Shown here piece after piece: positions 21,500-39,962 of a stretch of DNA of 64,000 nt (position 1 is the stretch's first letter; each line of letters opens with the position of its first letter). The notes beneath the pieces were generated by a model. It was not told the DNA's origin. It saw nothing but the letters and a program-made list of their open reading frames with translations, and searched no databases. The translations under genes and the position numbers were made by a program. This DNA is from Isoetes taiwanensis. Lineage: Eukaryota; Streptophyta; Lycopodiopsida; Isoetales; Isoetaceae. The stretch is taken from assembly GCA_021234155.1 (NCBI GenBank), contig JAJEKV010000017.1, forward strand, positions 18,858,372-18,922,371. Direction: 5' to 3'.

Positions 21500-21841
21500 A
21501 TGGCACATATTAAAAGCACAGCTAGGGTGGTTCTAGACCCGGGATCCTGCATCCACATGGCGGAGTTAGCAGCTTGGGCTAGGAAGAAGATCTTGGAACA
21601 CCTGTGGCTGGCACCCCCTCGTGACGAAGAGCCAGGCAGTTCCGACTTGTCAGACGAGTCGTACCACACCATACACGAGCAAGAACCTAGCAGGTCATCT
21701 GACTCATCACGAAGAATGGGCGAGACAGTTGAGCTAGTATCGAACCGTGAAGGGGAGGAGGAGCAGTGGCACCCAGGTCATGTAAAGGAAAGAAAAAGTA
21801 GCAGAATGACAGGAGGAAAGGGAGACAAGGAAGAGCATTAG
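21500..21841 (+). pseudogene. Start of Ty3/gypsy gag, cut by the TIR element
   Basis: 113 codons beginning MAHIKSTARVVLDPGSCIHM, then a Lys/Arg patch (WARKK), then a long acidic and Ser-rich tract. It starts about 510 bp after the PBS, a normal leader length, and is stopped by a TAG formed at the TIR junction. The gag core is absent; gag resumes beyond the TIR element at 36,711 near the zinc knuckle. The first residues echo the H3 tail (A-x-x-K-x-T-A-R). Assignment to gag rests on position more than on motifs. Confidence 0.6.
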
Positions 21842-21867
21842 GGCGGATTTGGGGTCTCAAAATGGCC
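21841..21867 (+). repeat. Left terminal inverted repeat of the 14.9-kb element
   Basis: 27 bp starting GGGCGGATTTGGGGTCT. One mismatch to the inverse of the right end. Confidence 0.85.
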
Positions 21868-22650
21868 TCCTATCAGCCATTCCACGTCATATTTCCGCTC
21901 CTTTTTTCCCATGCCACCTAGGATACCAAACTCTCATAATTACAGATTTGCTTGGAATATTCTTTCAGAATAAGGGGGATTGCGCATTCATGGCGCCATA
22001 TGTATTTAATTCTGTTGGTTGTCAGACGGGCTGATGCAACACGTAGCGCTTCTAAAATGCCACTTGCATTATAGCATACCGGCAACTCATGACGGTGTCT
22101 CTTGGTTTGTCAGATATCAAGCGTGCGCGTCACCGCCTTCTACATTTCAAAATTTGAATGTGTAGGTTGAAGCTTTGTATCAGATCAGACTTTCATTTTG
22201 AGGCGCTGCGGCTGCGCCTTAACCGATCTTCACTTCATCCTAATACAGGCTTCCCGCCCCCTACAATTCGAAATTTGAATTTGCTTAATGTATAAAAGCA
22301 TGGATTGTAGGAGAATGGACTTTTCGATTTCCATATGCACGTTGCAAATTTCAAAAACGAAGTTAGTACGGACGTTCGCTCACACGGCTTAATTGTGTTG
22401 GGGCATAAAAATACCACACCTTCATTTCGCATACCGTCACGATCTACACAAGATGGAAGTTGCTTGTTGTCAAATTACACTTAAACACAAGTGAGGTCGG
22501 CACTTACGTGGTTTTCTCGAGGAGGGTTTGGAGTTTTTTTTTTTAATCCCAATTATCGACATAGTGTGACGTAGCATCTTGGTATTAAATAGTATGTTAA
22601 ATTCGAATTATATCGGTGTTCATTTTCAGGTTAAACTCAAATCATATAGG

Positions 22651-22758
22651 TTTAGGAATAAGGCTAAAAAAGGAAGATATTGGATATTTAGGAATAAGGT
22701 TAAAAAAGAAAGATATTGGATATTTAGGAATAAGGTTAAAAAAGGAAGATATTGGATA
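22651..22758 (+). repeat. Three tandem 36-bp repeats
   Basis: Unit TTTAGGAATAAGGCTAAAAA plus 16 more bases, at 22651, 22687 and 22723, with one or two differences. The length is a multiple of three, so any frame through it repeats 12 residues. Confidence 0.9.
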
Positions 22759-23679
22759 TGGCTCAAATTTCGAGATATGCACATAATGGCATGTAATGAT
22801 GGCTGATAGGACTGGAATACGAATCATTCCTACGATTTTCATGTCTAATCCAGCCTATATCTATTCCAGCCTAGATTGGCGCCCATTCTCCCCCCAATCT
22901 CCGCCCAATCTTCGCTAGATCCTCCACCCAATTTCTCTAGTCCATCGCCATGAAGAGATCAGCTACGGAAGAGCCGGAGGTGTCCTCCAAGAGGCGCCTA
23001 TTACGGCTGGAAGAGATGTTCCCTCTGCAGTTCCCTCCGCTGCCCACGGTTCTTGCTCTGAATGCCTCTGATTCCTCTGATTCCTTTGACGAGGAATCAG
23101 AGAATGAGGAATCAGAGGAAATTTCGGAGCAGGAGTTCATCACGGTGTGTTCTTGAAGGTCGGATAGGAGATTCTTCGAGAGAATGAGTGGTCTACCGAA
23201 GGAGAAGAAACCGAAGATGATGAAGAAGATGAAGAAGTTGAAGACGAATCCGCTGACTTCGAGGAGCTCATGGCGTTAGTTCATGGTACATGCATGTTTT
23301 CTTTCTTTTCTTAAGCATTCAACTAACGGTTATTTCTTATTTTTTTTTTTGCGATGGTGAAGCGGATGAATGAAATTTGTTAGGCAGAGCACCTCTTATT
23401 TTTTTCCTTGTTCTTAGCCTCCAAATTGCCTCCAACTTCTTACCATATGACCTGCAAGCCTCCCGGCTTTTTCGTTTGAATAGTTGAAGCCTCCCAGGGC
23501 ATTTAAATTTACAAAATGATGTTCTCATGTAAAGCCATACCGCCATAAAAAATTTTGAATGTAAAAAGTTTTGCTTCTAATTCCATTTGAATACCTAACT
23601 TGTTTTTTTTACATGTGTTTACCACTCTTAAGTACATAAGTCATTATCCCTTTTCAAAGAGCATATTATTTTTCAAGAA

Positions 23680-23747
23680 GGATCACACCAAGCGAATAGT
23701 ACATATGCAACAAAAATGGAACACACTAAATTTGCATCGTGTGATCC
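23680..23747. repeat. TCACACGA-type hairpin Hb
   Basis: Arms GGATCACACCAAGCGAAT (23680-23697) and ATTTGCATCGTGTGATCC (23730-23747), with two mismatched pairs and a 32-base loop. A more degenerate pair lies at 22381-22444, and its duplicate at 24468-24534. Confidence 0.75.
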
Positions 23748-23903
23748 ACTTTCTTATTTGTTGTCAAATTAAAATTAAACACAAGTCCCTCATCAATAGT
23801 CTCTCATTTGCATATAAAATATCTATCATTCCAAGTTATATTATGTTTTATGAACTAAAATGGCCTCCTATCAGCCATTCCACGTCATATTTCCGCTCCT
23901 TGG

Positions 23904-24540
23904 GATTTGGGGTCTCAAAATGGCCTCCTATCAGCCATTCCACGTCATATTTCCGCTCCTTTTTTCCCGTCAGATTTGCTTGGAATATTCTCCCGGAATA
24001 AGGGGTATCGCACATTTATGGCGCCATATGTATTTAATTACGTTGGTTGTCGACAGATTGACGCAACACGCGCGAAAGCTTCTAAAAGCCACTTGCATTA
24101 TAGCATACCGGCAACTCATGACGGTGTCTCTTGGTTTGTCAGATACCAAGCATGCGCATCACCGATTCTTGTCTTGCCCTATTTTCATTTAGAGTCCATG
24201 GCCATACAAGCTTCCCGCCTTCTACATTTCAAAATTTGAATGTGTAGGTTGAAGCTTTGTATCGACTTTTCGTTTAGTTTGCCACGATTATTGCCTTTTA
24301 AAAGTTCGTAACCGGGATCTTTACTTCATCCCAATACAGGCTTCCCGCCCCCCTACAATTCGAATTTTGAATTTGCTTTTGTATAAAAGCATGGATTGTA
24401 GGAGAATGGACTTTTCGATTTCCATATGCACGTTGCAAATTTCAAAACGAGGTTAGTACGGACGTTCGGCTCAAACGAAGCGAATTGTGCTGGGGCATAC
24501 AAATTGTACACCTTCATTTCGCGCCGTGCGATCCACGCGG
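23904..24540 (+). repeat. Internal copy of the element's left end
   Basis: Matches about 21848-22450 (GGATTTGGGGTCTCAAAATG, the ATTTCCGCTCC block, GGCGCCATATGTATTTAATT, CTTGGTTTGTCAGAT, the TTCCCGCC blocks). A third, short copy of the GGCCTCC...CGCTCCTT block lies at 23860-23902. It suggests insertion of one family member into another, or terminal slippage. Confidence 0.85.
24468..24534. repeat. Degenerate TCACACGA-type hairpin Hc
   Basis: Left arm GGCTCAAACGAAGCGAATT, right arm CATTTCGCGCCGTGCGATCC. It is the duplicate, through the internal copy of the element's left end, of the pair at 22381-22444. Confidence 0.55.
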
Positions 24541-27184
24541 TATGGAAGCTCCAAATGATGTGTGGATAAGGATCCAACTGACTCACGAATATGCTCCAGT
24601 CTTCAATCGCAAAAAAGGAGGTCTAAAAAATAAGAACTTAGACCTCGACATGTTGCGCCTTGCGTGCTCAAAAGTGTCGACATCATCCGGGCGATGGCGG
24701 TTTATATCCATTGGATCCGTTGAGTGGCAAGAAACCGTCATTTCGGGACGTTTCAAGTTTAGTCTGATTTTGTGGTGACGGTAACTCTGGCCTTTTGGGA
24801 TATTGTGAGAGATTGAGAGAGGATGAAGGCATTCGAATCGAATACGATTCCTTGAGATGAGCCGCTCGATTGTCACAAGAGAATTATAACTTAAACCAAA
24901 GCTCTTTTTTCTCTCGCTTCATTACTCCAATCGTGAGGAAGGAAAGGAATGACGGCTTGGGGAGGGAAACTTCTTTGAGATAATGGCGGGACAAGTCCAA
25001 ATTGGTGATAGGGCAGCTGCAAGAAAAGATCAAAGAGCTCGAAAGAGCAAACTTTGGGCTTCAATGTAGGTTAAAGAATTTGAAGAAAACACCCCTTGGC
25101 TTGCGAAAGGAAGAAGCACTATCGAATCGATAGAGGAACCGAAGTTTGGATCAGGTGCATTCAGACGCCAGGTCACGACCACAAGGTCCGTTTACAACAC
25201 TAGCAAAGGCCAATTAAGATCTGGAGAAACTAGAAGCAATCTTGGTTACGTAGTGAAGAACCTAGCGACAAACAGGGAGATAGTGGACATGATTTGTCAG
25301 CCCTACAACGCTCCTCTCAAGAAGATGGTAGGAGAGATCTACAAGAAGTTAGAAGCGACAGATGTACAGACTGTTTGTGATGATGTAGGCATCGGTGGGC
25401 TTGGTTACCGTTCTCTATTCAAGCCATTCCACGAAGCGTTGAAAAGAATGGGCACAAAAAGTATTCGCCCACGCCCACAAATTGTCGAGAATACAAGGGT
25501 TACTAGGACAAAGATGGTGTATGCCATATTAGGAGAGATGCACCACGTTGAATGTGCTGGTCCCGCCATAGCCATAAAAAGATAAGAATGGCAAGGATTG
25601 TTGTGATATAGTTGAAATGAATGAACGCAAATAATCTTTGGGTTGACCTCAGTTACTCTCTTACAATTCCTTGTCAAATATTATGACTTAACAATTCAGA
25701 AAACTAATGGTGAGATTGAAGTTTGCATAAAATTGGATGAAATAGAACCCGACCAAGTTTGAGAAGTATGAGAGGGTATCCGTTGTCATCATGAATAGAG
25801 CAATTGAGAATGCAATTGCACATGCTAAATCAAAGAGCAACAAGAATAATAAAAAGATGTAGAGGTGACTGGACGAGGAGAAGAAGCGTCTTAAAAAAAT
25901 GGTTCTCATGTCAATCAAGATGATACCGGTGGTTAGGTCTCTTTAAAAGTTCGAAAAGAAACCCACGAGGTATTGAAATGGGTGTTCAATCAAACCCGAC
26001 ATCCCGAGTCTAATATCTAGATTCGAGGGAGGGAAAAATTGCAAGTAGATCACTATGGATCTTACAAAGTAATTTTTCACTTGGCGTCTGATTTAAAAAC
26101 TGAGAAAGCAATGTACAACATAAGTGGAGGAGGACAAGGAACATGCAAAAGTTGTCTGTACTGCAATCATGCAAGGAAGTCAAGTACTGGGAAGACTGTT
26201 TCAACCTTGTCCCTTAACCAAGCAAATGCTCCTAATAGAGGAGAAGAAGATCCCAAGTTCCATGGCATTTTCCCCATTCCATTAGAGAGGGTTCATATCT
26301 GCACTTTGCACGGCTTTGTGAGAATCATCGACAAGATGATATTTTTGAGTCGCAGATTCGTGGAACACATTTCGCACAAGAAGAAAGAGAGGAAGGAATT
26401 CAGAGTTGAACATGTTCTATCGAGCGTGGTTTGCATGGTGGCAATGTAAGATTAGAGCTCGATGAGAAACGGGCAGGAAGAACAAGTGTGCCTCGTAAGG
26501 TGTCAATTGGAGGGGTGAAAGCTCGACGCTTCGTAAAGAATCATAGAGAGGCTCTGAACGGAAACCAGATGGGAGAAAAGGTCTATGAATTTGAAAAATT
26601 GCTGGTTGATGCGGGCGCAGACCGCACGAGATGGCGCTCGCTTACGGCATTGAGGAAAAAAAAGCATGGGATGCATTGTCTGAATTGTTCCCATACATTC
26701 AGAGAATGGACCTCACAAGAGAAGATGCAGAAATGTTCGTGCAAGCGAATAACAAATTTATTAAAGCTTTCATAGACGCATGGGGAGAGAGTGAAGTCAC
26801 GCACTACTTGCACATCTTTTTGGGCTCATGCACCTTGGTTTTTAGGAAGTATGGAAGCCTAGCAAAGGTGGAGTGCACAAGGCATGGAGAAGTCGCATAA
26901 ACAAGCTAAAATAGCCTTTCATCGTAACACTCAAAGAGGGGGTGGAAATGTGGGAACCAACCCTCTAAGACAGATGACAGAGTGGTTTTATAGAAGGGCG
27001 ATGGCTAAATACGACAAGAAGGTCGCTTTAAGGAGCAACCCATGAAGTCGTAAACACCATTGGCATAATGTCAAGAGAAAAAAACGGAGTGTTGCTTGGC
27101 AAAATTCTAGGGCCCCACTAGCATCGCAACAGTGGAGATCTAAGAGACAAAGAATCGGTAAAGTATACTTGTAATGTGTAGCAT

Positions 27185-27250
27185 GTTCACACGACGCGAA
27201 GTACTTGCCTCCAACCTTGTTTGCACAACTGTAGCTTCGCGTCGTGTGAT
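27185..27250. repeat. Hairpin Hd between the transposase and cargo gene A
   Basis: TTCACACGACGCGAAG (27185-27200) and CTTCGCGTCGTGTGAT (27235-27250), one mismatch in 16, loop 34. It is 142 nt past the transposase stop. A further right-arm copy CTTCGCGTCGTGTGAAG at 27309-27325 has only a weak left partner; that one is 27 nt past the end of gene A. Confidence 0.9.
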
Positions 27251-27351
27251 CTTATTTGTATCATCTGGTACGAGCAAAGGGAGTTCGCTATTGCTTGCAT
27301 TTATGTGGCTTCGCGTCGTGTGAAGCTTTACAAGATAATAATAAAAAAGGG

Positions 27352-27894
27352 TTACTTTTGATTAAAGTTGTGAAAGATGTTACATTGAAAAACAAAATAC
27401 AACGACTCATTGTTGCTCCAGTGCGAGCTCTTCTTCATTATCTTCATCATCATCATCAGCTCTCGGTCCTCGTCTTCGCCTTCTTCATCTCTTCTCCTCA
27501 AGCGAGCAATCACCCTATCCAAACGTTCCTCCAATCTGTCCACCATCTCTTTGTACATGTCCCGCTCTGTCCCAATAGCACAACGTGTTCTTACTCGCTT
27601 CGAATTAGCAACCTCGTTGTTTCATAACCACCTCGGTCTGCGGGTTGTTGGGGCATGTCATCCCGTCCGACCTTCTATTCAACCACTTTGATTTGCCTCT
27701 CTCCGCTCTACTGAAGCATGAGAAGGTTGAATTCATTCTCTTCTTCTTTACTGCTGAATTGTAACGGCATTTTTCTTTAGAAGATTATCTTGCTCCTTCA
27801 ACCTCTTCATTAGAACACCCAACACTATGTCGGATGGGAGTTCTATCCTCTTCTAACTTTTCCCTTATCACCGGGTTGAGGATGTGGAGGCCAT
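27352..27894 (-). pseudogene. Cargo gene A, coiled-coil paralog (decayed)
   Basis: The start MASTSSTR at 27894 and the motif ELPSDIVLGVLMKRLKEQDN align with genes C and D (MASSSS..KRPR, ELPxDITLAVVMKRFKE). The frame is broken by two stops right after MASTSSTR and further stops or shifts in the middle. An in-frame C-terminal part follows (MYKEMVDRLEERLDRVIARL, then an acidic run). A TATA box on the minus strand at 27981-27990 (ATGTATAAAT) is about 90 nt before the ATG. Function unknown; heptad-like pattern suggests a coiled coil. Confidence 0.6.
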
Positions 27895-28138
27895 AGATGA
27901 CAAATGGGAGGGACGTTAAGATTATAGAAGTGAGGAGCAAAGACTCTAACCGGCGGAAGGAGCACAATGCAAGGACCTTAATTTATACATATTAGTGCTC
28001 ATATTAAACACAGTCAGCTGCTGTCGCACGTGTCGAGCGGATTCTGTCGGTTGTCCGCTAGAACACATTAATGGTACTGTCCGCTGGAACACATTAATAA
28101 CTATTCTAACTACACTGTATCGCACCACGCAAAATCTG

Positions 28139-28180
28139 CACACGAGCTTTAAAACCCTATGAAGGGTTTCGCTTCGTGTG
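28139..28180. repeat. Hairpin Hf, 3' of cargo gene B
   Basis: CACACGAGCTTTAAAACCC and GGGTTTCGCTTCGTGTG with a 6-base loop. It is a tighter version of the family with the same outer CACACGA, and lies about 155 nt past the stop of gene B. Just upstream (28052-28100) GTCCGCTGGAACACATTAAT occurs twice. Confidence 0.75.
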
Positions 28181-28333
28181 ATCTATCTTGTCATTCTCTC
28201 TACCACGGATATTGAAAATTAAAAATAGGAAACGTAATATTCGGCACATTTGTCAAAAACTTTTCCCATTGAGAAATAAAACCATTACAAACATTAAAAA
28301 AAAAAACGGGCCCCTCTAGGAGGAGCCCGATGC

Positions 28334-28747
28334 CTATGATCGCCGGGCAAGCTCTTCCTGGAGGGCAGTGATAATTGTTTTCTGCTCCTCCAACATGATT
28401 GCCTGCCCTGCAACCACGTTCTCATATTCCGCAACCTTATCTTCCCGCTCATCGAGTTGAGCTCGGGCAGCCTCTCCCGCTGATTAGGCCCTAAGCCTCT
28501 CTTGGAGGTTATATCTCGTGGCGCGCAATTCGCGGTCTAAGGCAGCCCGCTGATTGTCGCGCACTAAAATCACCTCCCTATAGAAGGCGGCCTTCTCCTC
28601 TGCCGCAACCAGCTTGGCGACGTCTGCATCATTCTTTTCTTTTAGAAGGCGGATCCGTTCCTCCGCTTCAGCACGAATGTTCTGAATTTCCTTGACCAGA
28701 ACTTGAGACAAGATCTCGGCAGGGATGGAACTGGAGCTGGAGGCCAT
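28334..28747 (-). pseudogene. Cargo gene B, coiled-coil paralog (one in-frame stop)
   Basis: The frame starts MASSSSSIPAEILSQVLVKE at 28747 and runs 87 codons to a TAA at 28484-28486, then continues in the same frame for 49 more codons (AARAQLDEREDKVAEYENVV, then ALQEELARRS) to TAG at 28334. Nearly all of it is a charged heptad pattern. IPAEILSQVLVKEIQNI corresponds to the ELPxDITLAVVMKRFKE block of A, C and D. Minus-strand TATA at 28837-28846 (CTATATAAAA), about 90 nt before the ATG; hairpin Hf downstream. The single stop could be a recent mutation or be read through. No known function. Confidence 0.65.
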
Positions 28748-29210
28748 TGAAAGTGATGGGAGAACAAGAGAGATGGCTGAGGGCGGATGTGGTAGAACAG
28801 GAGATGGCGGATAGGAGAAGACAAAGGCCTCCGACGTTTTATATAGAAACTAGAGGATACGTTGGAATCTACGGTTGTGAGTACCGATAAAGTTGTGTAA
28901 TAATCCTACAAGGCGAAATTATAGCATGCAATTAGGCAACGGTAGCCTATGTTCGCATCATGGGATCCGTCATATCCTAGCCGTACTGTATGCATGCCGT
29001 ACAAAAGACAGTGTTATTGTGGCAGCGCATGCCACGTCCTTGGCATGACGTTGTCATCCACATGCCACGTATGTGAATAGACGTTGTCATCCACATGCAA
29101 ATTCGCATTTACCTGCAAGTTATCACATAATCTAGCTAGATATTTGTGTTACATATACTTTTCCATTAATAAATTAGGAATTTATACATACAACAAGGTG
29201 TACGTTGTGG

Positions 29211-29279
29211 AGATCATACGACGCGAAATCCATTGATTGCTACCTAATTGCAAGCATGGCATTTCGCATCGTGTGATCT
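29211..29279. repeat. Hairpin Hg, 3' of cargo gene C
   Basis: AGATCATACGACGCGAAAT and ATTTCGCATCGTGTGATCT, two mismatches in 19, loop 31. It lies 84 nt beyond the stop of gene C. The loop is almost identical to that of Hi, so gene and hairpin were duplicated together. Confidence 0.9.
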
Positions 29280-29362
29280 TTTAATAAAACAAAACAAGAG
29301 AACAGACAGAAGCAAGAAATAGAGCAAATTTTTCTTTATAACAAAAAATATATATACAATGG

Positions 29363-29719
29363 CTAGGGATCTTCATGATCTAGTAGCTGAAGCCGTAAAG
29401 CTGCGTTCTCATCCTCCGCAGCTCGAAGCTTCTTCTCCATATCTTCTAGCGCCTGCGAAATATTGTGTGCAGTTAAAACTGCCTCCACCCTACGGCTATT
29501 GGCCTCTCGGTACCTGGTTAATGTTGCCGCAAGCTCAAGGTCTCGCTCATGCAGCATCCCCCTCGTGAATTCTAACCTGTCCACCGCCTCCATCTTCTCG
29601 GCGACGAGACGGCTGTTTTCCTCGTGAACTTCCTTGAACCTCTTCATCACCACAGCAAGGGTGATGTCCGCGGGCAGCTCTGGGCGCGGTCGCTTGGTGG
29701 AGGAGGATGAAGATGCCAT
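29363..29719 (-). CDS. Cargo gene C, intact coiled-coil paralog
   Basis: 118 codons, uninterrupted. Basic Ser-rich start (MASSSSSTKRPRPELPADIT), block AVVMKRFKEVHEENSRLVAE, then a long heptad-rich helix with NISQALEDMEKKLRAAEDEN near the C-terminus. The start is chosen because the paralog D has the same start and both have TATA boxes (here TTATAAATAG on the minus strand at 29813-29822, about 95 nt before the ATG). Hairpin Hh lies just upstream of the TATA, Hg just after the stop. Small, probably dimeric coiled-coil protein; KRPRPE could be a nuclear signal. I do not recognise the family. Confidence 0.7.
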   Translation of the reverse strand: MASSSSSTKRPRPELPADITLAVVMKRFKEVHEENSRLVAEKMEAVDRLEFTRGMLHERDLELAATLTRYREANSRRVEAVLTAHNISQALEDMEKKLRAAEDENAALRLQLLDHEDP

Positions 29720-29845
29720 CGGAGGAAAAGGCGGAAGGCGGAAGGTGGAGAAGATGAGCAGAAGGCGGAAGGCGGAAGAGGATCGGAGGTCGAAGGCAAG
29801 ATAGAAGGTCTTCTATTTATAACAGGGATTTCATAGTAGCTTGAG

Positions 29846-29907
29846 TCACACGACGCGAAGGATGCCGTCGGTCAGGAAAATGGACCGTTACTTCTCGCAT
29901 CGTGTGA
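29846..29907. repeat. Hairpin Hh, 5' of cargo gene C
   Basis: TCACACGACGCGAAG (29846-29860) and CTTCTCGCATCGTGTGA (29891-29907). It sits immediately upstream of the TATA box of gene C. A shortened version with a very small loop (30736-30764) has the same place before gene D. Confidence 0.85.
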
Positions 29908-30067
29908 GGAAAAAGGACCATTACTTCTTCTAACGTCTTTTCTTCCAGAGAAAGCTCGTGTGATAATTTTTATTGATAATTTCGGTAATACAATCTATAC
30001 ATAAGTAATTTTACTGATACATAACTAAAGATAGAACTTCTCATTGAAGCAAAGTAGAACGGCATGG

Positions 30068-30136
30068 AGATCACACGATGCGAAATCCATTGATTGCTAC
30101 CTAATTGCAAGCAAGGCATTTCGCGTCGTGTGATAT
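30068..30136. repeat. Hairpin Hi, 3' of cargo gene D
   Basis: AGATCACACGATGCGAAAT and ATTTCGCGTCGTGTGATAT, loop 31, near-copy of Hg. About 120 nt past the stop of gene D. Confidence 0.9.
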
Positions 30137-30254
30137 TTTAATAAAACAGAACATACATTGGAACAAGAGGATAGATAGAAGCAAAAAATAGAGAAAACTT
30201 TGCTTTGAAGCAAAAAAATAGATAGATACAACGGCTAGGGATCTTCATGATTCT

Positions 30255-30634
30255 CTAGCTGATTTTCATGTCCTGCAGCTGAAGCCGTAAGGCTGTGTTC
30301 TCATCCTCCGCAGCTCGGAGCTTCTTCTCCATATCTTCTAAGGCCTCAAAAATCCGTGGAGCGGTTTCAACCGCCGCCCCTGCGGCTCGTCGCCTCTTGG
30401 TACATGGCTTAATGTTTCCGCCGAGCTCAATGTCTCGCTTCGTCGCAGCCCCTCCCTCGTGAAGGCTAATCTGTCGACCGCCTCCATATTCTCGGCGACG
30501 AGACGGTTGTTTTCATCATGGATCTCCTTGAATCTCTTCATCACCACTGCAAGGGTGATGTCCACGGGCAGCTCTGGGCGCTGGGGAGTGCTATCTTGGC
30601 GTGGTCGCTTGCTAGAGGAAGATGATGATGCCAT
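30255..30634 (-). pseudogene. Cargo gene D, coiled-coil paralog with frameshift
   Basis: Closest to C. Starts MASSSSSSKRPRQDSTPQRP at 30634, then ELPVDITLAVVMKRFKE, then shifts frame near the middle (after AFTREG). In the next frame the C-terminus ALEDMEKKLRAAEDENTALR then LQLQDMKIS runs to TAG at 30255. Minus-strand TATA GTTATAAATA at 30721-30730, about 90 nt before the ATG. The hairpin at 30736-30764 lies before it and Hi after it, repeating the layout of C. Confidence 0.7.
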
Positions 30635-30735
30635 CGGAGCGTAAGGTGGAAGGCGAAGCCGGAAGTAGAAGATGAGCAGTATATGAAGGCGATCGGAGGT
30701 CAGAGTGGACATCGATCTTCTATTTATAACATGAG

Positions 30736-30764
30736 TCACACGAGTTGCTTCTCGCGTCGTGTGA
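30736..30764. repeat. Hairpin Hj, 5' of cargo gene D (shortened)
   Basis: TCACACGAG and CTTCTCGCGTCGTGTGA nearly abut. It looks like a deletion derivative of Hh, in the same position upstream of the TATA. Confidence 0.7.
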
Positions 30765-30820
30765 GGAATAAATAAATTAATTGTTTTTTTCCAATAATAT
30801 TTCATTTCTTCGAGATAAAT

Positions 30821-30885
30821 ATCACACGACGCGAAAACCTAGATATGACAGAAAATCAGACTGATGTATTTCGCGTGATGTGAAT
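30821..30885. repeat. Hairpin Hk, 3' of cargo gene E
   Basis: ATCACACGACGCGAAA (30821-30836) and ATTTCGCGTGATGTGAAT (30868-30885) with a loop unlike the others. About 100 nt past the stop of gene E. Confidence 0.85.
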
Positions 30886-30985
30886 TAATACAAATAAAAT
30901 AATTTTTATTAGGAATTTCGGAAGGACAATCTGTACATAAATAATTTTACCGATACAAGTTGGAAAATATTTAACTTCCAATTTT

Positions 30986-31560
30986 TCAAGCTTCGTCGTC
31001 AATTTCATGCTCTTTCAATCCCCTGCCGCACTGATCCAACAAGGCAATGGCTTCCATGTTATCGACCCCAGCTTCCAACCTTGGGTGAGTCAAGCCAGCA
31101 GCTAAAAAATTTAACATATTGCTCGCCCGCAGATCACGGAGACGCTGGAATTCTTCTTCCGTTGGTAGATTCGCCTCATCTTGAGCAAATCGAGACTCCA
31201 GCCTCTCATAGGCTTCTTTAAGCTTTATAGCATTGCCGGTATAATTAGACACTTCAAACATCTCTTTGTCCAAATCCTCTTCAAAATCTAGGCCTAAGTT
31301 TACCCATTCGGCCAAGGTACTGATAAGCTCGTCTTCCCTAGCACACATATTCGTAACAAAGACGGGTTCCTCAGTATATCACTTAGCAATAGGTATTCTT
31401 TGCCTTCCACTAAAATTGGCGTTATGTCAGACAACTTCTTTTCATCCTCATCCCCATCCTCATCACCTTCAGAATCATCTCCCTCCTCCTGGTTCACCCA
31501 AGGCCAATGCGTCGGCTAAAACTCCTACATTCTTGCTCTTCTTCTTGTAGATCTATCTCC
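30986..31560 (-). pseudogene. Cargo gene E, acidic plus helical protein (frameshifted)
   Basis: The 3' part, 30986-31348, is open for 120 codons (DELISTLAEWVNLGLDFEED, then LKEAYERLESRFAQDEANLP, ending GLKEHEIDDEA): acidic, helical, no known domain. Upstream in another frame, 31300-31497 gives an acidic run (NQEEGDDSEGDEDGDEDEKK) then LSDITPILVEGKEYLLLSDI. The two look like one gene broken by a shift near 31340. A possible start MEIDLQEEEQE lies at about 31560. Hairpin Hk follows the stop. Not recognised. Confidence 0.5.
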
Positions 31561-31619
31561 ATTTCTACGCCATAGTCAAAGATCATCACACATAACCGAC
31601 CCCCCTTGGCTTAAAGATT

Positions 31620-32160
31620 TCATTGTTTCGGTGTATCTTCGGTTTTGGCCGAAAGAATGCAATAACTAGCAAATGCAAACGGCAAAGAGAAATAAGATAC
31701 CTTCTTAAGCACAAGGACGCAGCCGAGAGGAGCTCTGTTGCAAAGATTCTTGAAAAACATCTTCCCCGCTTGCAAATGGGAAGCCGCCTCCTCTAGAGCT
31801 GGTTTTGGAATGCACGCAGCCGGGGACATCTGCAAAGGACGTCTTGGCAGACCAAGCGGTCCGGGTGAAAGCTAAGGCAACCTCGCGATAGCATCCAAGC
31901 TCGCCATCGCTTTGCCATGATGTCCAACTCCTTGCAATAGAACGGATAAATCGCAATGGGCGAACTTCCTCGTTGTCATGAGGGGCGGATGCATACCATT
32001 CCGTGAACTTCACATAACAATCCATGGCGAAGCACGACGAAAGCAAGAAGATGTTTAGGAGCCGTAAGGCCGGCCACTCTCCGAACTCAAGTAGCCGTTG
32101 TCGATTATGAAAGGGGACACACCGTTGTGGGGAGATTTGTCCGGTACATTTTAGGGTTAG
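31620..32160 (-). other. Cargo region F, open but unassigned frames
   Basis: Two overlapping minus-strand frames are open. One contains FGEWPALRLLNIFLLSSCFA then MDCYVKFTEWYASAPHDNEE; the other contains LEEAASHLQAGKMFFKNLC. Neither gives a recognised domain; they may be one frameshifted gene. Four tandem TTAGGG units at about 32155-32178 border it. Confidence 0.3.
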
Positions 32161-32176
32161 GGTTAGGGTTAGGGTT

Positions 32177-32246
32177 GGATCATACGACGCGAAGACTACT
32201 ATGTGCAACAAAAAGCACAATGCTTAACAGCTGCGTCGTGTGATCC
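32177..32246. repeat. Hairpin Hl, 3' of the H3-like gene
   Basis: GGATCATACGACGCGAAG and CTGCGTCGTGTGATCC, loop about 36 with its own sequence. Begins right after the TTAGGG run and ends 168 nt past the end of the H3-like gene. Confidence 0.85.
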
Positions 32247-32413
32247 TCACGTATAACATTAAAAAAAAATACAAAGTGCGGCTAGGCTTCTAAGAAAGAA
32301 ATGGACTAAGAGATTAAACTTATAAAGCCATTACATTAAGAAATATTATACATATGAAAAAAACACAAAGGCACTTCACGGCCTTTTTTCGGGGGTCTTT
32401 CTTCTTGTTGTAT

Positions 32414-33238
32414 TCACCATAAAATTTTGACCATAGTACTTTCGGATCCCTTATGCGTAAGACGCAGGCGCATGTCCTTGGGCATGACAACACCCAATTT
32501 GGCATGTATTGTTGCAAAGTCGCGAGTCCTCGAACAGTCAATCGATACCAACCGCTTCAAGCCATTTGAAGAGCATTTAAAGGCGCTTGCTTGAATTCTC
32601 AGAATCGGTATGATGTATCGCACCACACTCTTGCGTAATCTCTTTCACGAGCCCGGCAAATGGGAGACACCTGAATGACCATCTCGGTGCTCTTCTGATA
32701 CTTCTTAATCTCGCTGCGCTTTTAATGCCGGCTTCGTCTTCCGCTTCCGGCCACTACCCTCACCCACCCCCATTTGGAGCACATTGCTTTCAGCCGACTC
32801 TTCCGCCGCCTCTCACCCCAAAGATTTCGAGTGTTCCTACCGACTCTTCCTGCCGTCTCCTCACATTTCTAGTCGCCTTCCCCTTCCGGGCGTTGGGCCT
32901 CCTCCTTTGATTTGAAGGTTTTGGCGCATCCACAGGAGGAGCAGGAGGAGCAGTAAGAGCAAGAAGAGGCGGCTGCCCAATAATTAATCCGCGTCATATT
33001 CTCGCTTCGCCGGTCTCTCACATTTTCATCCTCCGCCTCTCAACCGGTGCACCTCCCTACTTACTCCGGAGTCGCTTCTCCGCCGTCCCATCATGCGGTT
33101 TCTTTTCCGGTCTTCATTAGGCATGGTCGGAGGAGGAGAATCTCTATCGAGACTTCATTCGGATGAAGGAGGCGGACTAATGTAATCACCGGCCTTACAC
33201 CACCGGATGGGTCCTTGCGGTTGCTTAGTTCTTGCCAT
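32414..33238 (-). pseudogene. Histone H3-like cargo gene, frameshifted
   Basis: The ATG at 33238 opens MARTKQPQGPIRW, the H3 tail start ARTKQ. After a long degraded Ser/Pro/Arg-rich tail, GRKRKTKPALKAQ is followed (frame change) by EIKKYQKSTEMVIQ, matching the H3 alpha-N helix (EIRRYQKSTELLIR). Next come FAGLVKEITQE, KQAPLNALQMA (alpha 2, compare SSAVMALQEA) and GID.LFEDSRLCNN. The end HAKLGVVMPKDMRL matches H3 HAKRVTIMPKDIQL. The pieces are in order but spread over several frames with stops, so this copy is dead. The tail is much longer than in canonical H3, as in CENH3-like variants. H3 family membership is strong; subtype is open. Hairpin Hl lies 3'. Confidence 0.8.
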
Positions 33239-33738
33239 GGCTTCTCAGCGGATGGCGCTTTATACTACGAACACTGACAAAAATAGACAACTGGCAAGAG
33301 ATAAATAGTAAAAAACAGAAGTTAAAGTAAAATATGATGGTAACGTTTTTAAATAATTGTACGGAACCCTAGAAAAATATCGGACAAAATATGGAACCCT
33401 AAAAAAACATCGGACAAAAACACAAATAAAAAACCGAGATTCAAAGCGCTAGGCGATAGACAATTTCTTGTTGATCGCGAACTCACTAAACTTTACATTT
33501 TCCTCTTGCCTGTAACCAACCCTAATGCCATCAATAAAATAATAAGATAAGATAAGATAAATTTTTACGTCCACGGGAACCCAACGGGTTATGGGACGGC
33601 ACATGCAAGGGCAACAACCCATCTAAAACCTGGGGACTAGACCCCATCACCAAACACAATAACCAAATATTAAAAGGCTACCAAGAATAAGATAAGATAA
33701 TGCTAATGCTAGTAGTAAATTTATGCTTCTAAAATTAT

Positions 33739-34140
33739 CTAGACATAGCCAGTCCAAGGATTGGAAGGCCATTGATCTAGAATAATTGCTGCGCCTCCCC
33801 ACATTACACCGCCCATTTCTTTTGCGCAGCGGGCTGCCCTCACCTTGCAGAGCTCCTCCTTACGGTTACACAATTGAAGAGGGGAGAGGTCCTCCTGTAC
33901 TGAGAAACTAGTCCCTCTGAGATGGTTTCCATGCTGAAGAACATGTAAGTGGCTAAGAGTGTCTTGAAACCGAACCAAAAGATGGCGAGGACGATCATGT
34001 CTTGCCGCTCCCACCCTAGTAGCGGAGACAACTCCACCAGCCTTCACATGCATGACATCAGTGAAAAAATGCAAAGCAAAGCATCCATATCGAAAGGGCA
34101 TCATCTTCTCGCCTCGCAACCCCTATAATACGCAGTTCGG
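33739..34140 (-). pseudogene. ORF1p/Transposase_22-like RNA-binding fragment
   Basis: The reading frame to the stop at 33739 contains VVSATRVGAARHDRPRHLLV then RFQDTLSHLHVLQHGNHLRG, TSFSVQEDLSPLQLCNRKEE. The order PRxLLVRF, VL, LRGTxFxVxEDLxPLQxxxRK resembles the C-terminal domain of L1 ORF1p-type proteins. In another frame just upstream ELRIIGVARRED resembles the start of their RRM. It is not clear whether it is element cargo or an inserted LINE piece. Confidence is limited by frame breaks. Confidence 0.45.
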
Positions 34141-34186
34141 GCTCCAAGAATGTAAGATACCGAGGTAGCCTGCTCCTCGTCATAAG

Positions 34187-34627
34187 CTAGCATGACGCTG
34201 CGACTCTGGTCCCCTTGGGATTGTGGAGATGTCCATCAGCGCCCACCTCAACATGTTCCCTTTCCAATGTCCGCACTTCCGCTTCAACACAATGTTTCTT
34301 CTGTGGCTGTAATTCTGTATCTAGTGTCTGTACTGAGGCATCACTTGTGCCCACATACTGGGCTTTAGGGTCTGGAAGGAAGGCATGTATTAACTGTAAT
34401 AAGTGTGTCCATCTCTCAATAGACACGATCATAGATGTGGCCGCCATTCCTCCCTCGGAATGAATGAGTCGTGCACTGTCACGGGAAGTGTAGGCGGCAA
34501 ACACCGAACTTGCGGTGTCTAGAGCACTTTGGAGATCCTCCCGATCTTGGAAGGTAAATGTACCAGACTTGCTTGTGCCGATATGAAGAGGCCGCTGGGG
34601 ACCAAAAAGAGAAGATGGCAAATCCAT
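34187..34627 (-). CDS. Cargo ORF H, unknown
   Basis: 146 codons from MDLPSSLFGPQRPLHIGTSK, with a C-terminal charged stretch EAEVRTLEREHVEVGADGHL that could be the coiled coil ahead of the ORF1p-like fragment to its left, in which case both are one broken gene. No known domain. No hairpin lies directly beside it. Confidence 0.4.
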   Translation of the reverse strand: MDLPSSLFGPQRPLHIGTSKSGTFTFQDREDLQSALDTASSVFAAYTSRDSARLIHSEGGMAATSMIVSIERWTHLLQLIHAFLPDPKAQYVGTSDASVQTLDTELQPQKKHCVEAEVRTLEREHVEVGADGHLHNPKGTRVAASC

Positions 34628-35120
34628 TATTACACTGGAATTAGCTTGCCCCTGACCATGGAGCTGTATGCTAGACCGAAAGCACTTGTGGGGACGAGGG
34701 ACCTCCCCGTGGCAAACAATGATTCCCCGAAAGGTGAGGCTTTTTCTTTTCCCTGGCCATCCTTACACCAAATCTCTCCTTATTACTGGCCCTTTCTGTC
34801 ATGGTGAAGCTCTTTAAATGAAATCAAAGTGGCTATATACAAAATTTAAATCAAAGCAGAAGCCTGAATCTAAAAGATCTGAAACACAATATCCAATACT
34901 GCAAACCCTACCAAAGCCGGCCGGAACAGGACTGTTTTGACACAGAAAACGTAACCAAAGATGGGCATACCATACACCATCAGAAAGATCCCGGAAAGAG
35001 CTTTCCAACGCAATAAGCCTCACCTGAAACGTAGTCCTGGATCAAAAGTTATGCTAGAAACTGTGTTGCCGGCGAAAAGCTGCACTACATGGCGCCTAGG
35101 AATGAAGATCAATAGTATTC

Positions 35121-35591
35121 TTAGGAGCAATGGAAGTCGTCAGCAATCTCCTCTGTCTCCATTAGCACTCTTAGCTCTGATAATGGCCATTCGCTTTCCA
35201 TGGTGGCTGTATAAATGACTTCCTCCCCTCTCCATACTCGAATATCCACCGCATCGGAGTGTCTGTTATGGTCCTCAAACGGCTCCCAAAAAGTTGTGCA
35301 GCCTCTCTTTTTCTGTTTCCTTCGTTCTAGTTGACAATTAACGTATAAATATTGTTTTGGAAGAAAATATCTGAACTTAAAGGAGGACTTAACTACGCGG
35401 ACCTCTGTTAGTTGACCGGATGATTCGTGGAATCGAACATCCCAGGTCGGAACCAAAAATAAGCCATCCATAAAATCGGCAGGGGGGAGAAAGCACGTAT
35501 ATGTCTTGAGCTTTTTTCCAACTTCCTGCGCCATCTGGAATATGTTAGCAAATACCTCAAACGGTGTGAAGATTTTGAAACTCATCCTCAC
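35121..35591 (-). CDS. Cargo ORF I, unknown
   Basis: 156 codons (MRMSFKIFTPFEVFANIFQM at the start; VRVVKSSFKFRYFLPKQYLY in the middle; acidic end). Mixed alpha/beta character, no membrane segment or signal peptide. Codon usage and length favour a real gene over chance, but I recognise no family. Hairpin Hm lies 360 nt upstream. Confidence 0.45.
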   Translation of the reverse strand: MRMSFKIFTPFEVFANIFQMAQEVGKKLKTYTCFLPPADFMDGLFLVPTWDVRFHESSGQLTEVRVVKSSFKFRYFLPKQYLYVNCQLERRKQKKRGCTTFWEPFEDHNRHSDAVDIRVWRGEEVIYTATMESEWPLSELRVLMETEEIADDFHCS

Positions 35592-35949
35592 GCCTCGCGT
35601 TTTCGGACATTCCCGCTTGCACCTCGTCGACCATGCATTTCTTCATTGCAATTACATTGTTCTCATTAGTGCGTGGCTTACAAAGTTCACTTAAAGGGGC
35701 AATTCAATCGGCCTCAAGCTCGGTTTCCTGACCTTTACGTTATAATCATGTCCGTAAAACCAGATGCCTATACCCCGCAAGGTCACGGCATCCATACCTT
35801 GGAAAAGGACAATTCCGATGTCTATGTGATACACGACAAGTACACTACTAATACTTTCGGCCGAATGACATCCACGTCGCCCGATAAACATAAACCCGCA
35901 CAATAAATTTGTTTGTAAACACGTGTCAACGAAAGAAATGAAAAGATAA

Positions 35950-36023
35950 GGAGATCACACGACGCCAAAACTATCTCTACGCAGCTAAGTAGTCGACAGC
36001 CTAGCTTCGCCGTCGTGTGATCC
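35950..36023. repeat. Hairpin Hm near the right end
   Basis: GGAGATCACACGACGCCAAA and CTTCGCCGTCGTGTGATCC, loop about 35 with its own sequence. Both arms carry the change that converts GCGAA to GCCAA/GCGAAG, a partly compensated difference. Confidence 0.85.
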
Positions 36024-36677
36024 GATTAAGGTGGTTACCATTTGCGGGCAATTTTGGGAAGTCGTTTTTGGTGGAGATTAGCTCTTTGGCCATATCGGAA
36101 GGGGTATATGCATGTCGTATTGTTATACTTTCCACTTTCCGCCGCTAGAATTCAACTTGAACTCTTTTATCCTACCTATCCAATGTGTCCGCATCGCCCG
36201 ATCGCTTTGTCGCTAACTCTATGCTCACCCTCGTTGATGGCGGCATACTCACCCACCTAACCTATTGAGACAAAACCTCCCACTTCTTGACCTTGGGAAT
36301 TCTGTAAATGGGGCAAGAACACGTAAATTACAGGAGACATGGATTGCGATGAGGAGTGAAGAAGCGGAGAGGATGCACGTAGAGCTACCGGAGTGACAAG
36401 ATGAAGTTTGGCACCAAAATTTGACAAGGGAGTTGGTGACGCCGACAAGTGGGGCGGTCAAAGTCACCATTATTTTGGGCGGCGACTCTCCTAAAAATAC
36501 GGGCCATTAAAATGGTTGCAATAAAAGCGCAGGCATCCCCTATGAAAATACGCCATGTGGATGCCAAGTAAGCCTGCTCATCCTTCTACCTGCCAAGTAA
36601 TACTGACTTTCGTAAAAAAGGCGCAAACCTGATTGGTCCTGGGGAATCTGACGTGGAAATCTTTAACCCAAGATAAG
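36024..36677. other. Right subterminal region of the 14.9-kb element
   Basis: No convincing gene. Contains GC-richer blocks and CCACGT motifs near the end that echo the left subterminal CCACGTCAT. Confidence 0.4.
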
Positions 36678-36704
36678 GGCCATTTTCAGACCCCAAATCC
36701 GCCC
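36678..36704 (-). repeat. Right terminal inverted repeat of the 14.9-kb element
   Basis: Ends AGACCCCAAATCCGCCC, followed by TAATG. Pairs with 21841-21867. Confidence 0.85.
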
Positions 36705-36710
36705 TAATGA

Positions 36711-39700
36711 AAGGCCATAGAAACAAAATCTGTTGCAGAGGCCGAGGCTAAGGCATTAAGCCTCGAGGAGGACATACCAAAGAACCAGTATCAGCGTCCC
36801 GCCTCTTATTCTCAGCCTCGCCCTTACACACCGTATAAGCCTCGTTCTCCAAGTCCTGGACCCCCTCAGCAAAATTCAAATGGGCGACAGGATAAGAAAG
36901 TTACCTTCAACGTGGCGGACAAGCCGAATAATATGAGCAGCTCAATTCGGGACCTCTTAAGTCCATTCCTAAAGAGGCTCGAGAACAGCTCCGCAAAGAT
37001 AAGGCATGTTTCAGGTGTATGCGGCCCGGGCACATGATGCAGAACTGCCCCTATGTCACACAAACCGCTCAGCTGGCAATGGGTGACCTCAATTGGGACG
37101 ATCTCGAGTCTCCACCACCTGTTGACGAGGAGGCCCACGAGTACATTCACGGTGCGTCTCATATTTTTGCAGCTATTGAAACCGGCAATGCTGAAAGTCA
37201 GCCTGCCGTTATTTCTGCTATAGGCCAGGTAGACAATAAGCCCTTTATTATTCTTATGGATAGGGTAGTACCCATAATTTTGCTTCTCCCAGAATGGCCC
37301 AGGTGTTGAAACTTGAGACTTTAAGATCCAGACCGCGACCGGTAACCTTAGCCAGTGGTAAGATCAGACATACAAATGGTCGTCGCATTAACCTCAATAT
37401 GCAGTTGCCGGGTGCACCAGTTGCCTTAGGTGCCGAGCTAATGGATATCGACAAATATGACCTTATTGTCGACATGGAATTCTTGGCATCTGCTAAAGCC
37501 AATATAGACTGCGAGAAACGAGAAGTGACCTTCAACGCAGCTAATGGAGCCCGAGTAACTATTAAAGGTGATCCATTAAACCCAATTATGCAGTCCATGT
37601 CTATCAGGCAGTTAGATAAGGCTATACGCAAGGATAAGATACTTTGCGTTATCAGACTTGCCTCCATTGAGTCGGACGCTAAACAGAAGGAAGTAGTGGA
37701 TGCATTGCCAGAGAACATTGCCAATCTTCTCAGAGAATTTAAGGATCTTTTCCCAGATGAGATCCAGAAGCTTCCTCCTTTCAGAGGGGTGGAATGTGAG
37801 ATATCTTTGGAACTGGGTACTAAGCCTACCAGTAAGGCGTCGTACTGCATGAGTCCTCCTGAGTTGGCGGAGCTTAAGAAGCAACTGCAGGAGCTATTGA
37901 ACCTAGGCTTCATTCGGCCTAGTGTTTCACCTTTTGGTGCTCCTATTCTCTTTGTTAAGAAGAAGGATGGCTCCATGAGGATGTGCATTGACTATAGGCA
38001 GCTCAACAAGCATACGATCAAGAATCGCTATGCTTTACCGACAACAGATGATATTATGGACCAATTGCAAGGGGCCAAATACTTCTCAAAGATCGACTTA
38101 CGCTCCGGGTATCATCAGATAAGAATTAAAGAGGAAGACATCCATAAATCTGCCTTTCGTACTAGATACGGGCATTATGAATTCACAGTTATGCCTTTTG
38201 GTTTAACTTTTGTTGTTATTTTCTTTGACGACATTCTCATCTACAGTAAAACCCTTGAGGAGCATGAGAATCACCTTAGGATGGCCTTTCAGAAACTGAG
38301 GTGTCACCAGCTCTTTGCAAAGTTCTCTAAGTGCAAATTCGCCACACCAAAGGTGGATTATTTGGGACTTATGATTTCAGCCGAAGGAATTGCTACAGAT
38401 CCCGCAAAAATAGTGGCAGGATATTACAGGAAATTTGTCAAGGATTTTGCCAAGATTGCAGGCCCTCTCACAGACCTTACAAAGCATGAGAAAGTGAAGG
38501 ATTGGGTAGATCACTGGAAGACGAAGGTCCAGACAAGCTTTTAGAAGCTCAAGGATGCTTTGACTTCAGCACTAGTCCTCACATTATCAGACCCGAGAAG
38601 GATAAGTTAGTAGCAACAGATGCCAGTAAAATTGCTACCGGGGGAGTCCTAATGCAGGAAGGTAGGGTTATTGCGTATGATTCTAAGAAGATGAATGAAA
38701 CCGAACAACGATACCCTACCCATGATCAGGAATTGTTAGCAGTTGTATGGAGACACTACCTTCTTGGTAGAAGATTCCAGTTAGATACGGATCACTAGAG
38801 TCTCCGTTATCTTTCTACCCAGCCATATCTCAATCTCCGTAAGAGAAGATGGATGGAGTTTCTTGAGGAGTATGATTTTGAGATTATGTATAAGCCGGGT
38901 AAGCACAATGTGGTTGCGGATGCTTTATCACGCCATCCCTTGGTAACCCGAACCCATTGTAATGCGATTTCCACGCTGTTGGCAAAGGAAATCTTCAGAT
39001 TACACGGGATGCCACGAGTGATAGTATCCGACAGGGATCCCAAGTTTGTAAGTGCATTCTAGAAAGATTTCTTTGCCACCATCCAGACCAAGCTTGCTAT
39101 GAGTACAGCATATCATCCTCAGACGGATGGACAGACAGAGCGCACCAACTGCATTATAGAGGATATGTTGCGAAGCTATGTGTGGAGTAAGCAATCTCAG
39201 TGGGCTGACTATATTTATTTAGTGGAGTTTGCCTATAACAGCATGAAATAGGAGTCTTCTAGAATGTCTCCCTTCATGATAAATTATGGTTACCAATGTC
39301 TTACTCCAGACACATGGCATAATCTTGTTTCTAAGGTGGAGGTTTCTCAGCAACTCCTCTTGGAAATGCAAGCTTTGGTTGAGGAAGTTCGTCGTTATTT
39401 ATTGGCTGCACGTAGTCGTCAGAAAAGTGTAGCTGATAAGCACAGGACCCCACGAGTGTTCCAAGTGGGCGATTCAGTTTGGCTCAAGATTAAGCAAGCC
39501 AAGCTTAAGATTGGTAACTGCAAGAAACTGGCACCCAGATGGGCTGGGCCGTTCAAGATCATTGAAAGCGTTGGAGAACAGGCATATCGATTGGATTTGC
39601 CACCCCGCTTGAAGATCCACAAGGTCTTTCATGTGAGTCTTCTGAAGCGACACACTCCTGATCCAGAGGAGATGTTGGATACACCCACCCTCCTTGAAAT

Positions 39701-39962
39701 GACAGAAGAGCATCTAGAGATAGTGCCTGAAGCTCTTCTTGATCGGGCCTATAAGCAGACCATAAGGACTCAAATGCTACAATATTTGGTCAAGTGGAAG
39801 CACTTGCCAGCTGAGGATGCTACGTGGGTGATGAAGATAGACCTTGAAAAACATTATCGGGACTTCATGCGGGAATCTCAAGGCCGCACCATCAATGATG
39901 TCATCAACCCCGCACCCGGCGGTAAGCTTGGAAGGCTTGATTCGGCACGGATCATGCAGTAG
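36711..39962 (+). pseudogene. Ty3/gypsy gag-pol, chromodomain type, multiply deleted
   Basis: Order: gag tail; zinc knuckle CFRCMRPGHMMQNC near 37012-37053; protease, where the D-S-G codons (37259-37266) have lost one base, shifting the frame; RT with [13 protein letters not shown] and FFDDILIYS; RNase H with TDAS and VVADALSRH; integrase pieces from IVSDRDPKF through TDGQTER; and a C-terminal chromodomain-like end with LQYLVKWKHLPAEDATWV. In-frame deletions remove about 20 residues between GLT and FVVIFFDD (about 38,218), the segment before GYYRKFV (about 38,412), and the zinc-binding part plus first catalytic Asp of integrase (about 38,975). Stops lie near 38,541, 38,798, 39,062 and 39,250. 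Non-functional. Confidence 0.92.

Follow-up and report, generated by a model that had tools for sequence, protein, structure and literature searches.

A 64,000-nucleotide stretch of DNA from Isoetes taiwanensis, referred to here as the window, carries a transposon in which short arms recur in facing pairs, and the locus raises the question of what these pairs are for. The first-pass annotation had described about a dozen hairpins with shared arms and offered three options: 3'-end processing signals, sites for a dimeric protein or transposase, or small-RNA precursors. The family proved to be real. Allowing up to 3 mismatches, the arm TCACACGACGCGAA was matched 23 times in the 64-kb window compared to 1.85 matches expected (shuffle mean; shuffle maximum 5), and all 23 fell at 23.68-36.02 kb, inside the 14.9-kb transposon. 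The element and its genes are as follows (strand is given for the genes, the intron and the terminal repeats).

21836..36709, DNA transposon copy bearing the pairs, 14,874 bp; ends set by comparison with other copies and by the inverted ends
21836..21867, plus strand, left terminal inverted repeat, starting CATTAGGGCGGATTTGGGGTCT
24542..27174, plus strand, RAG1/Transib-like transposase gene, broken; limits set by homology to relative L047; TAA at 27172-27174
29363..29719, minus strand, small ORF MASSSSSTKRPR..., 118 aa; no domain above cutoff
35121..36440, minus strand, accessory gene also present in relative L047, without a recognised domain; approximate at its upstream limit
35896..36038, minus strand, putative 143-nt intron of the accessory gene; GT...AG in copy C1018, acceptor altered in the window copy
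36678..36709, minus strand, right terminal inverted repeat

Fourteen sites were recognised in the window copy, and the analyses below use the 11 pairs having both arms readable.

22381..22440, HP0, degenerate pair at the left end, duplicate of HP2
23683..23744, HP1, pair, span 62
24471..24531, HP2, pair, span 61, ending 10 nt before the putative transposase ATG (24542)
27187..27249, HP3, perfect arms, span 63, 12 nt 3' of the transposase stop
27262..27323, HP3b, left arm degenerate in the window, readable in copy L010
28120..28181, HP4, pair, span 62
28904..28965, HPx, degenerate pair, span 62, ~60 nt upstream of a predicted minus-strand TATA (28845)
29214..29276, HP5, pair, span 63, 86 nt past the stop of the small minus-strand ORF
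29846..29907, HP6, pair, span 62, ~25 nt upstream of a predicted minus-strand TATA (29821)
30071..30133, HP7, pair, span 63, duplicate of HP5
30738..30764, HPy, shortened HP6-type pair, ~10 nt upstream of a predicted minus-strand TATA (30728)
30822..30883, HP8, pair, span 62
32180..32243, HP9, pair, span 64
35955..36020, HP10, pair in the putative intron, span 66 in the window copy, 63 in C1018 and L041

The site placed at 28.14 kb corresponds to HP4, and HPx and HP3b are additional pairs. The site at 30.74 kb is a shortened version of the 29846-type pair, and is full-length at the same place in copies L015, L019 and L020. The 22.38-kb site, described as degenerate, is so in the window, and copy L025 has a readable form. 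A covariance model built from the 11 window pairs, which it recovers by construction, also returned the short pair (30734-30766, E 0.0095), matched 27259-27325 poorly (E 1.3) and had a single chance match outside the element, at 54500 (E 0.85); it did not detect HP0 in the window.

The earlier statement that no copy lies outside the element is true of the window, but the motif recurs genome-wide: the genome holds 1,369 exact arms compared to 2 for a reversed control, and 168 perfect pairs compared to 0. All 23 of the arm or hairpin loci fetched from it lie within sequence of the one element, in other copies or in fragments (locus L012 is a 320-bp fragment). Target duplications next to the pairs were not seen on inspection by eye, and a MITE, the reading under which such hairpins would be dispersed independently through the genome and carry duplications of their own, was rejected on both grounds. 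The viral contigs searched contained 0 perfect pairs. At up to 3 mismatches the arm was likewise absent from 6 of 6 other superfamily loci (L046-L051, 7-10 kb each, with L047 and a 5.2-kb element within L046 near-complete), and the idea that the pairs are common to the entire superfamily was rejected; no 10-mer recurred at 4 or more places in L047-L051. L046 has a different palindrome array (GATCGCGGCCGCGATC), located outside its 5.2-kb element.

The conserved unit is a half-site, (R)GATCACACGACGCGAA, in facing pairs whose half-sites lie ~49 bp apart. The outer span is 61-64 bp in 10 of the 11 window pairs and 61-66 bp over all eleven. Positions T1, C2, A5 and G10 are invariant in 22/22 half-sites, A3 and C4 are kept in 18/22, position 9 is almost free, and conservation is slight beyond about -3 and +15. 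The loops had been given as 31-36 bases and mostly different. Most do differ while the span stays near-constant, but they measure 33-38 nt in ten listed pairs; the 29214 loop duplicates the 30071 loop, and some further loops are alike at z of at least 3 (23683 with 24471 and with 32180; the reverse of 28904 with both 29214 and 30071). Substitutions between copies numbered 2.2 per 100 in the five outermost arm bases compared to 4.5 in the flanks. The inner nine showed 8.8 per 100 against the same 4.5, with no sign of constraint; this excess may stem from CpG-linked read errors or from decay.

We slightly favor the view that the apparent hairpins are sites, used in pairs, at which a protein docks to control the element or lift its silencing, a protein probably encoded by the element itself. 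Several observations argue for this reading: the arms are in excess and confined to the element among the loci examined; sequence is kept within every half-site, the arms lacking mutual compensation; the span is near-constant although most loops differ; the loops are unstructured; the outer five arm bases change less than the flanks; and the pairs, in DNA that looks non-coding, occur ahead of predicted TATA boxes, within a 5' leader and the putative intron, and downstream of ORFs, locations that suit no single RNA-processing role. Precedents also exist. In PMC2613891, En/Spm subterminal repeats are recognised by TNPA, and the soybean element Tgmt* has its motif in direct and inverted order, able to form 12 and 2 stem-loops at its two ends, protein binding by these repeats being left undecided there; PMC5735166 and PMC10398659 describe VANC binding to short motifs in non-coding DNA. 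By analogy with TNPA at En/Spm ends and VANC on VANDAL non-coding DNA, a candidate element protein would bridge both half-sites of a facing pair, and, by holding the pairs, would regulate the element's genes jointly or free them from silencing, whether by activation, demethylation or insulation. Of the three original options, dimer-protein sites fit best. Against the docking-site reading stand the lack of a known DNA-binding domain above cutoff in the element's ORFs, the inner arm bases, which differ between copies more than the flanks do, and three results given below: one compensation test at P 0.035, the double change in HPx, and 3 of 7 junctions lying near pairs.

The leading alternative, which we consider improbable, is that RNA hairpins act in the element's transcripts, in 3'-end processing, stability or translation control. 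In its favor, complete hairpins (arms plus loop) fold strongly, the genome holds its many perfect pairs, and several pairs lie ~12-150 nt past stop codons of gene models that are approximate. However, pairs also lie upstream of predicted TATA boxes and in the putative intron, and one stem stands 10 nt before the transposase start codon, which argues against 3'-end processing signals. The covariation check suggested at the outset likewise spoke against a structural hairpin. Among the unpicked window pairs, 28 within-pair mismatches were counted compared to 29.8 on re-pairing (P 0.23), or 24 compared to 23.8 without HPx; RNA pairing of arm cells was 83.5% in both the observed and shuffled sets (280/500 shuffles as high), and 1 pair had a double change compared to 1.8 in shuffles. 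Four hand-picked representative sets, in which HPx has a double change, gave P values of 0.035 to 0.56, the weak compensation at P 0.035 arising in one set with HP1 taken from L018. The loops showed no excess of structure over shuffles (12 loops of 10 types, mean z 0.07 and -0.31), with 1 of 24 strand tests at p 0.027. Compensatory stem changes, as expected of a structural RNA, were not found, and with arm changes uncompensated and loops unstructured a structural RNA was rejected.

A little less probable still are non-functional palindromes, spread by duplication within the element and kept alike by conversion. Unit duplications inside the element do carry pairs with them, and some loops appear related. 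Most loops, however, are unlike each other, and the arms of one pair are no more alike than arms of different pairs; conversion is disfavored because conversion of palindromes should raise within-pair likeness.

We regard as unlikely the proposal that the RAG1-like transposase itself binds the pairs as internal sites, serving synapsis, rearrangement or self-limitation. The predicted fold of the relative L047 transposase contains the RAG1/Transib core, with P element and coiled-coil rows ranking below RAG1/Transib in the VIA-align comparison, and its D401, D506, C527/C530, H742/H747 and E767 give the order D, D, CxxC, HxxxxH, E, which by comparison with RAG1 residue numbers is that of RAG1. Fold and residue order suggest that the element's transposase belongs to the RAG1/Transib superfamily. 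Pfam gave no match above cutoff for the ORFs of the element or its relatives (below cutoff were a RAG1 match for P0002, E 0.0038, and a zinc finger match for the L046 transposase, 0.0095), and recognised no RAG2-like gene. For two accessory proteins homologs were not found, a sequence search of solved structures gave two weak coiled-coil matches and further searches none, and the predicted fold of P0003 is poor (pLDDT 53.4). The putative intron has no counterpart in L047.

Recombinases of RAG1-like fold bind bipartite terminal sites, and the half-site contains CACAC, resembling the CACACC with which Aureococcus RAG-like termini start (PMC9435367). The CAC of the half-site is not invariant, however; the arm is missing from the terminal repeats, with the nearest pairs ~545 and ~690 bp from the element ends, and from the six other superfamily loci. 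Element termini are CATTAGGGCGG (CATTAG type), and those of L046 and L047 are CATTAGAG. An exact target duplication of at least 3 bp was found in 0 of 10 copies (2 copies had 2 bp), and copy C1035 showed an imperfect flank likeness of ~12 bp. The right flank of the window copy is Ty3/gypsy DNA (multicopy gypsy gag) matched by many gypsy copies, the left flank matches itself alone, and 0 of 40 scored flank matches cross the join as an empty insertion site would; the insertion in the window may be rearranged. Of 7 junctions between the window copy and two other copies, 3 touch a pair on a side or come within 14 nt of it (22430; 27249 and 27314; 28979), and 4 do not. These junctions leave room for a role of the pairs in rearrangement, but the pairs as recombination cassettes were reduced to a side remark because deletion between repeats would give like junctions.

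Least probable are small-RNA precursors with a common mature sequence, serving the element or the host against it: a plant host and a common 14-16-nt arm at fixed spacing would suit them, but all six Rfam matches fell far below gathering score, arm mismatches are frequent and uncompensated, and the arms are shorter than those of usual plant precursors.

The docking-site reading leads to a broader scenario, offered tentatively as a possibility we think rather unlikely to hold in full: a lycophyte RAG1/Transib-superfamily transposon may have evolved its own control system, in which a protein of the element recognises GATCACACGACGCGAA pairs at promoters, in leaders, within an intron and in downstream regions, and so prevents the host from silencing the element, as an independent counterpart of VANC. 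Self-marking of non-coding DNA by a protein-read motif is known in detail from few plant transposon families. If true, this unrelated further case, with strict paired geometry, would indicate repeated origins of systems of this kind, and the paired site offers a sharp handle for finding its protein. The element's transposase resembles the recombinase that builds antibody genes in humans, and the abundant RAG1/Transib-fold transposases with long open frames in Isoetes taiwanensis bear on the spread of these recombinases outside animals.

Compared to known systems, the element recalls the hairpin rule of giant viruses in having hairpins after several genes. That rule for transcript 3' ends depends on structure whatever the sequence, whereas the element keeps sequence, not structure, and has pairs before genes and in a putative intron as well. 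Its transposase shares the RAG1/Transib core fold, D-D-E order, CxxC and HxxxxH; unlike RAG1/Transib elements, the element has further genes and paired motif sites, its 10 copies showed no 5-bp target duplication, and its ends are CATTAG rather than CAC-type and bipartite. Like CACTA elements, it is a gene-carrying plant DNA transposon with short motif repeats able to form stem-loops, but its pairs are near-fixed in spacing and spread throughout, whereas CACTA repeats are packed at the ends, and in place of the CACTA terminus, 3-bp target duplication and Tnp2-type transposase of that group it has a CATTAG terminus, a RAG1/Transib-fold transposase and no 3-bp duplication. No VANC-like protein was found. 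With the VANDAL/VANC system of Arabidopsis the element shares a short motif that is specific to a single transposon family and sits in its non-coding DNA; the motifs of VANC measure 8-9 nt and stand in tandem repeats, in contrast to the 14-16-nt half-site arranged here in facing pairs.

The arm TCACACGACGCGAA was matched 23 times within the window at ≤3 mismatches, compared to 1.85 times in shuffles (largest 5), and every match was confined to 23.68-36.02 kb. A covariance model, trained on 11 window pairs so that recovery of those 11 is by construction, also picked a shortened pair (30734-30766) and a weak one (27259-27325). The site at 22381 is degenerate in the window and has a readable form in L025, another copy of the element; with this degenerate site included, the window copy holds 14 sites in total. 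These counts bear out the recurrent family with shared arms described in the first-pass annotation. Its statement that the loops mostly differ likewise stands: a few of the 65 loop pairs compared were related (z ≥ 3) and most were unlike, with no difference between mean z for the same (0.63) and the opposite (0.44) orientation (P 0.46).

Across the 22 half-sites of the 11 window pairs, T1, C2, A5 and G10 were invariant, position 9 was nearly free, and information dropped past about -3 and +15. The outer span was 61-64 bp for 10 of the 11 pairs; that of the eleventh was 66 bp in the window copy and 63 bp in copies C1018 and L041.

The covariance model had a single match in the window beyond the element (E 0.85). 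The window's other features include:
36710-39962 and 50619-52298, fragments of Ty3/gypsy retrotransposons (RT, integrase, chromodomain), adjoining the element and further right
56410-57333, minus strand, ORF with a voltage-gated chloride channel domain

In the genome (1,658,258,908 bases in 1110 contigs) we counted 706+663 exact arms and, at loop lengths of 25-50, 168 perfect pairs; the corresponding counts for the reversed pattern were 1+1 and 0. We fetched 23 arm or hairpin loci, several overlapping, from 15 contigs, and in all 23 the match lay in sequence of the same element. One such locus, L012, holds a 320-bp element piece (1356-1678) that carries a full pair plus half of a second, surrounded by DNA without further element sequence. 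Thus, the earlier claim that no copy lies outside the element holds for the window, bar the one chance match at E 0.85, and for the fetched loci, while arms and pairs do recur genome-wide.

For REARRANGEMENT, when the window copy was compared with C1018 or C1044, 3 of 7 junctions had a side at or ≤14 nt from a pair, and HPy, whose counterpart in other copies is a full pair, is shortened by deletion. Facing repeats are prone to deletion anyway, so we give this evidence little weight, but the pairs may still have a part in recombination. A left-end segment of the element, about 600 bp long, occurs twice in the window (21845-22430 and 23903-24522) and once in C1018, and a 1.6-kb stretch (33543-35129) is missing from C1018 and C1044.

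In 60 inter-copy alignments the inner nine arm bases varied more than the flanks (8.8 vs 4.5 substitutions per 100), while the outer five varied less (2.2 per 100). In the element outside the pairs, transversions (4.65% vs 1.76%) and deletions (2.85% vs 1.13%) were raised at CpG sites, as were transitions; since the first two are involved, deamination alone is insufficient. According to PMC8566536, the assembly was made from Nanopore reads, with both Nanopore and Illumina data used for polishing. We suspect that the pattern represents read errors at (methylated) CpG, a cause that would break frames as well. The compensation tests are subject to this CpG-linked noise.

If RNA structure were the conserved feature, with an important stem, arms of one pair would be expected to match better than arms across pairs. 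Among window pairs, mismatches within pairs numbered 28 compared to 29.8 after re-pairing (P 0.23), and 24 compared to 23.8 with HPx left out. In the RNA pair count, 83.5% of cells paired, the same as in shuffles, and two-sided arm changes were rarer than in shuffles. Loops alone (12 loops, 10 types, both strands) folded no better than shuffles, with 1 of 24 tests at p 0.027. HPx does carry a double change in its arms, and four hand-picked representative sets gave compensation P values of 0.13, 0.56, 0.035 and 0.23, the low one being traced to one choice of copy for HP1. Taken together, the lack of compensation between the arms, which the earlier annotation named as a refuting outcome, argues against a structural hairpin.

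The transposase gene is flanked by HP2, ending 10 nt ahead of its ATG, and by HP3, beginning 12 nt past its stop; gene limits, here set by homology with the letters of the ATG/stop region checked, are approximate, since the majority of frames are broken. Three pairs sit upstream of minus-strand sites judged TATA-like from a consensus match alone (HP6 by ~25 nt, HPy by ~10 nt, HPx by ~60 nt). HP5 is placed 86 nt past a small ORF, and HP10 falls within a putative intron of the accessory gene. At this position the element has a 143-nt insert where L047, a relative, has an unbroken frame; the aligned frame resumes beyond, and the insert ends GT...AG in C1018, with the acceptor altered in the window copy. 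The suggested 3'-end processing signal is disfavored, as at HP10 it would cut the gene. Judged from these placements, the pairs appear to occupy several sorts of non-coding DNA. Four telomere-like TTAGGG copies (32151-32176) lie a few bases from HP9 and are partly seen there in other copies.

Several RAG1/Transib-like transposase families occur in the genome (open frames of 864-930 aa); fold prediction covered L047 alone among them. Their frames include:
L046, 6745-9537, transposase frame
L047, 6923-9517, transposase frame
L050, 1932-4667, transposase frame

L046 and L047 have CATTAG termini. The nearly complete L047 (10 kb) carries the accessory gene that our element also has (28% over 133 aa, 36% in the next part). 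The arm at ≤3 mismatches was absent from all 6 superfamily loci (L046-L051), and none of the five loci L047-L051 had a 10-mer recurring at four places or more, their stem-loop counts lying inside the shuffled range; the 5.2-kb element in L046 had 1 stem-loop compared to 0.125 (largest 1). With four of the six loci partial, the array looks like an addition in this element's family rather than a trait of the transposase group. Beside the 5.2-kb element, not inside it, lies another palindrome array (~12) around GATCGCGGCCGCGATC (L046 325-3751), with 90 perfect 20-mers genome-wide. Unlike known RAG1/Transib elements, which have a target-site duplication, none of 10 complete copies (window ends 21836 and 36709 included) had an exact one of ≥3 bp at paired ends; in C1035 an inexact resemblance extended over about 12 bp.

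Paired recognition sites bound by a protein would account for the per-arm constraint, for a spacing that hardly varies and for sites lying in several kinds of non-coding DNA. Of the options raised earlier, dimer-protein sites thus fit best, and we infer an element-encoded protein as the candidate binder. We claim membership in neither of two comparable systems. Among CACTA elements, repeated sites are likewise read by a protein in En/Spm, where TNPA recognises subterminal repeats, and the repeats of Tgmt* are able to form 14 stem-loops (PMC2613891). In VANDAL elements, according to PMC5735166 and PMC10398659, VANC proteins bind to short non-coding motifs, with loss of methylation as a consequence.
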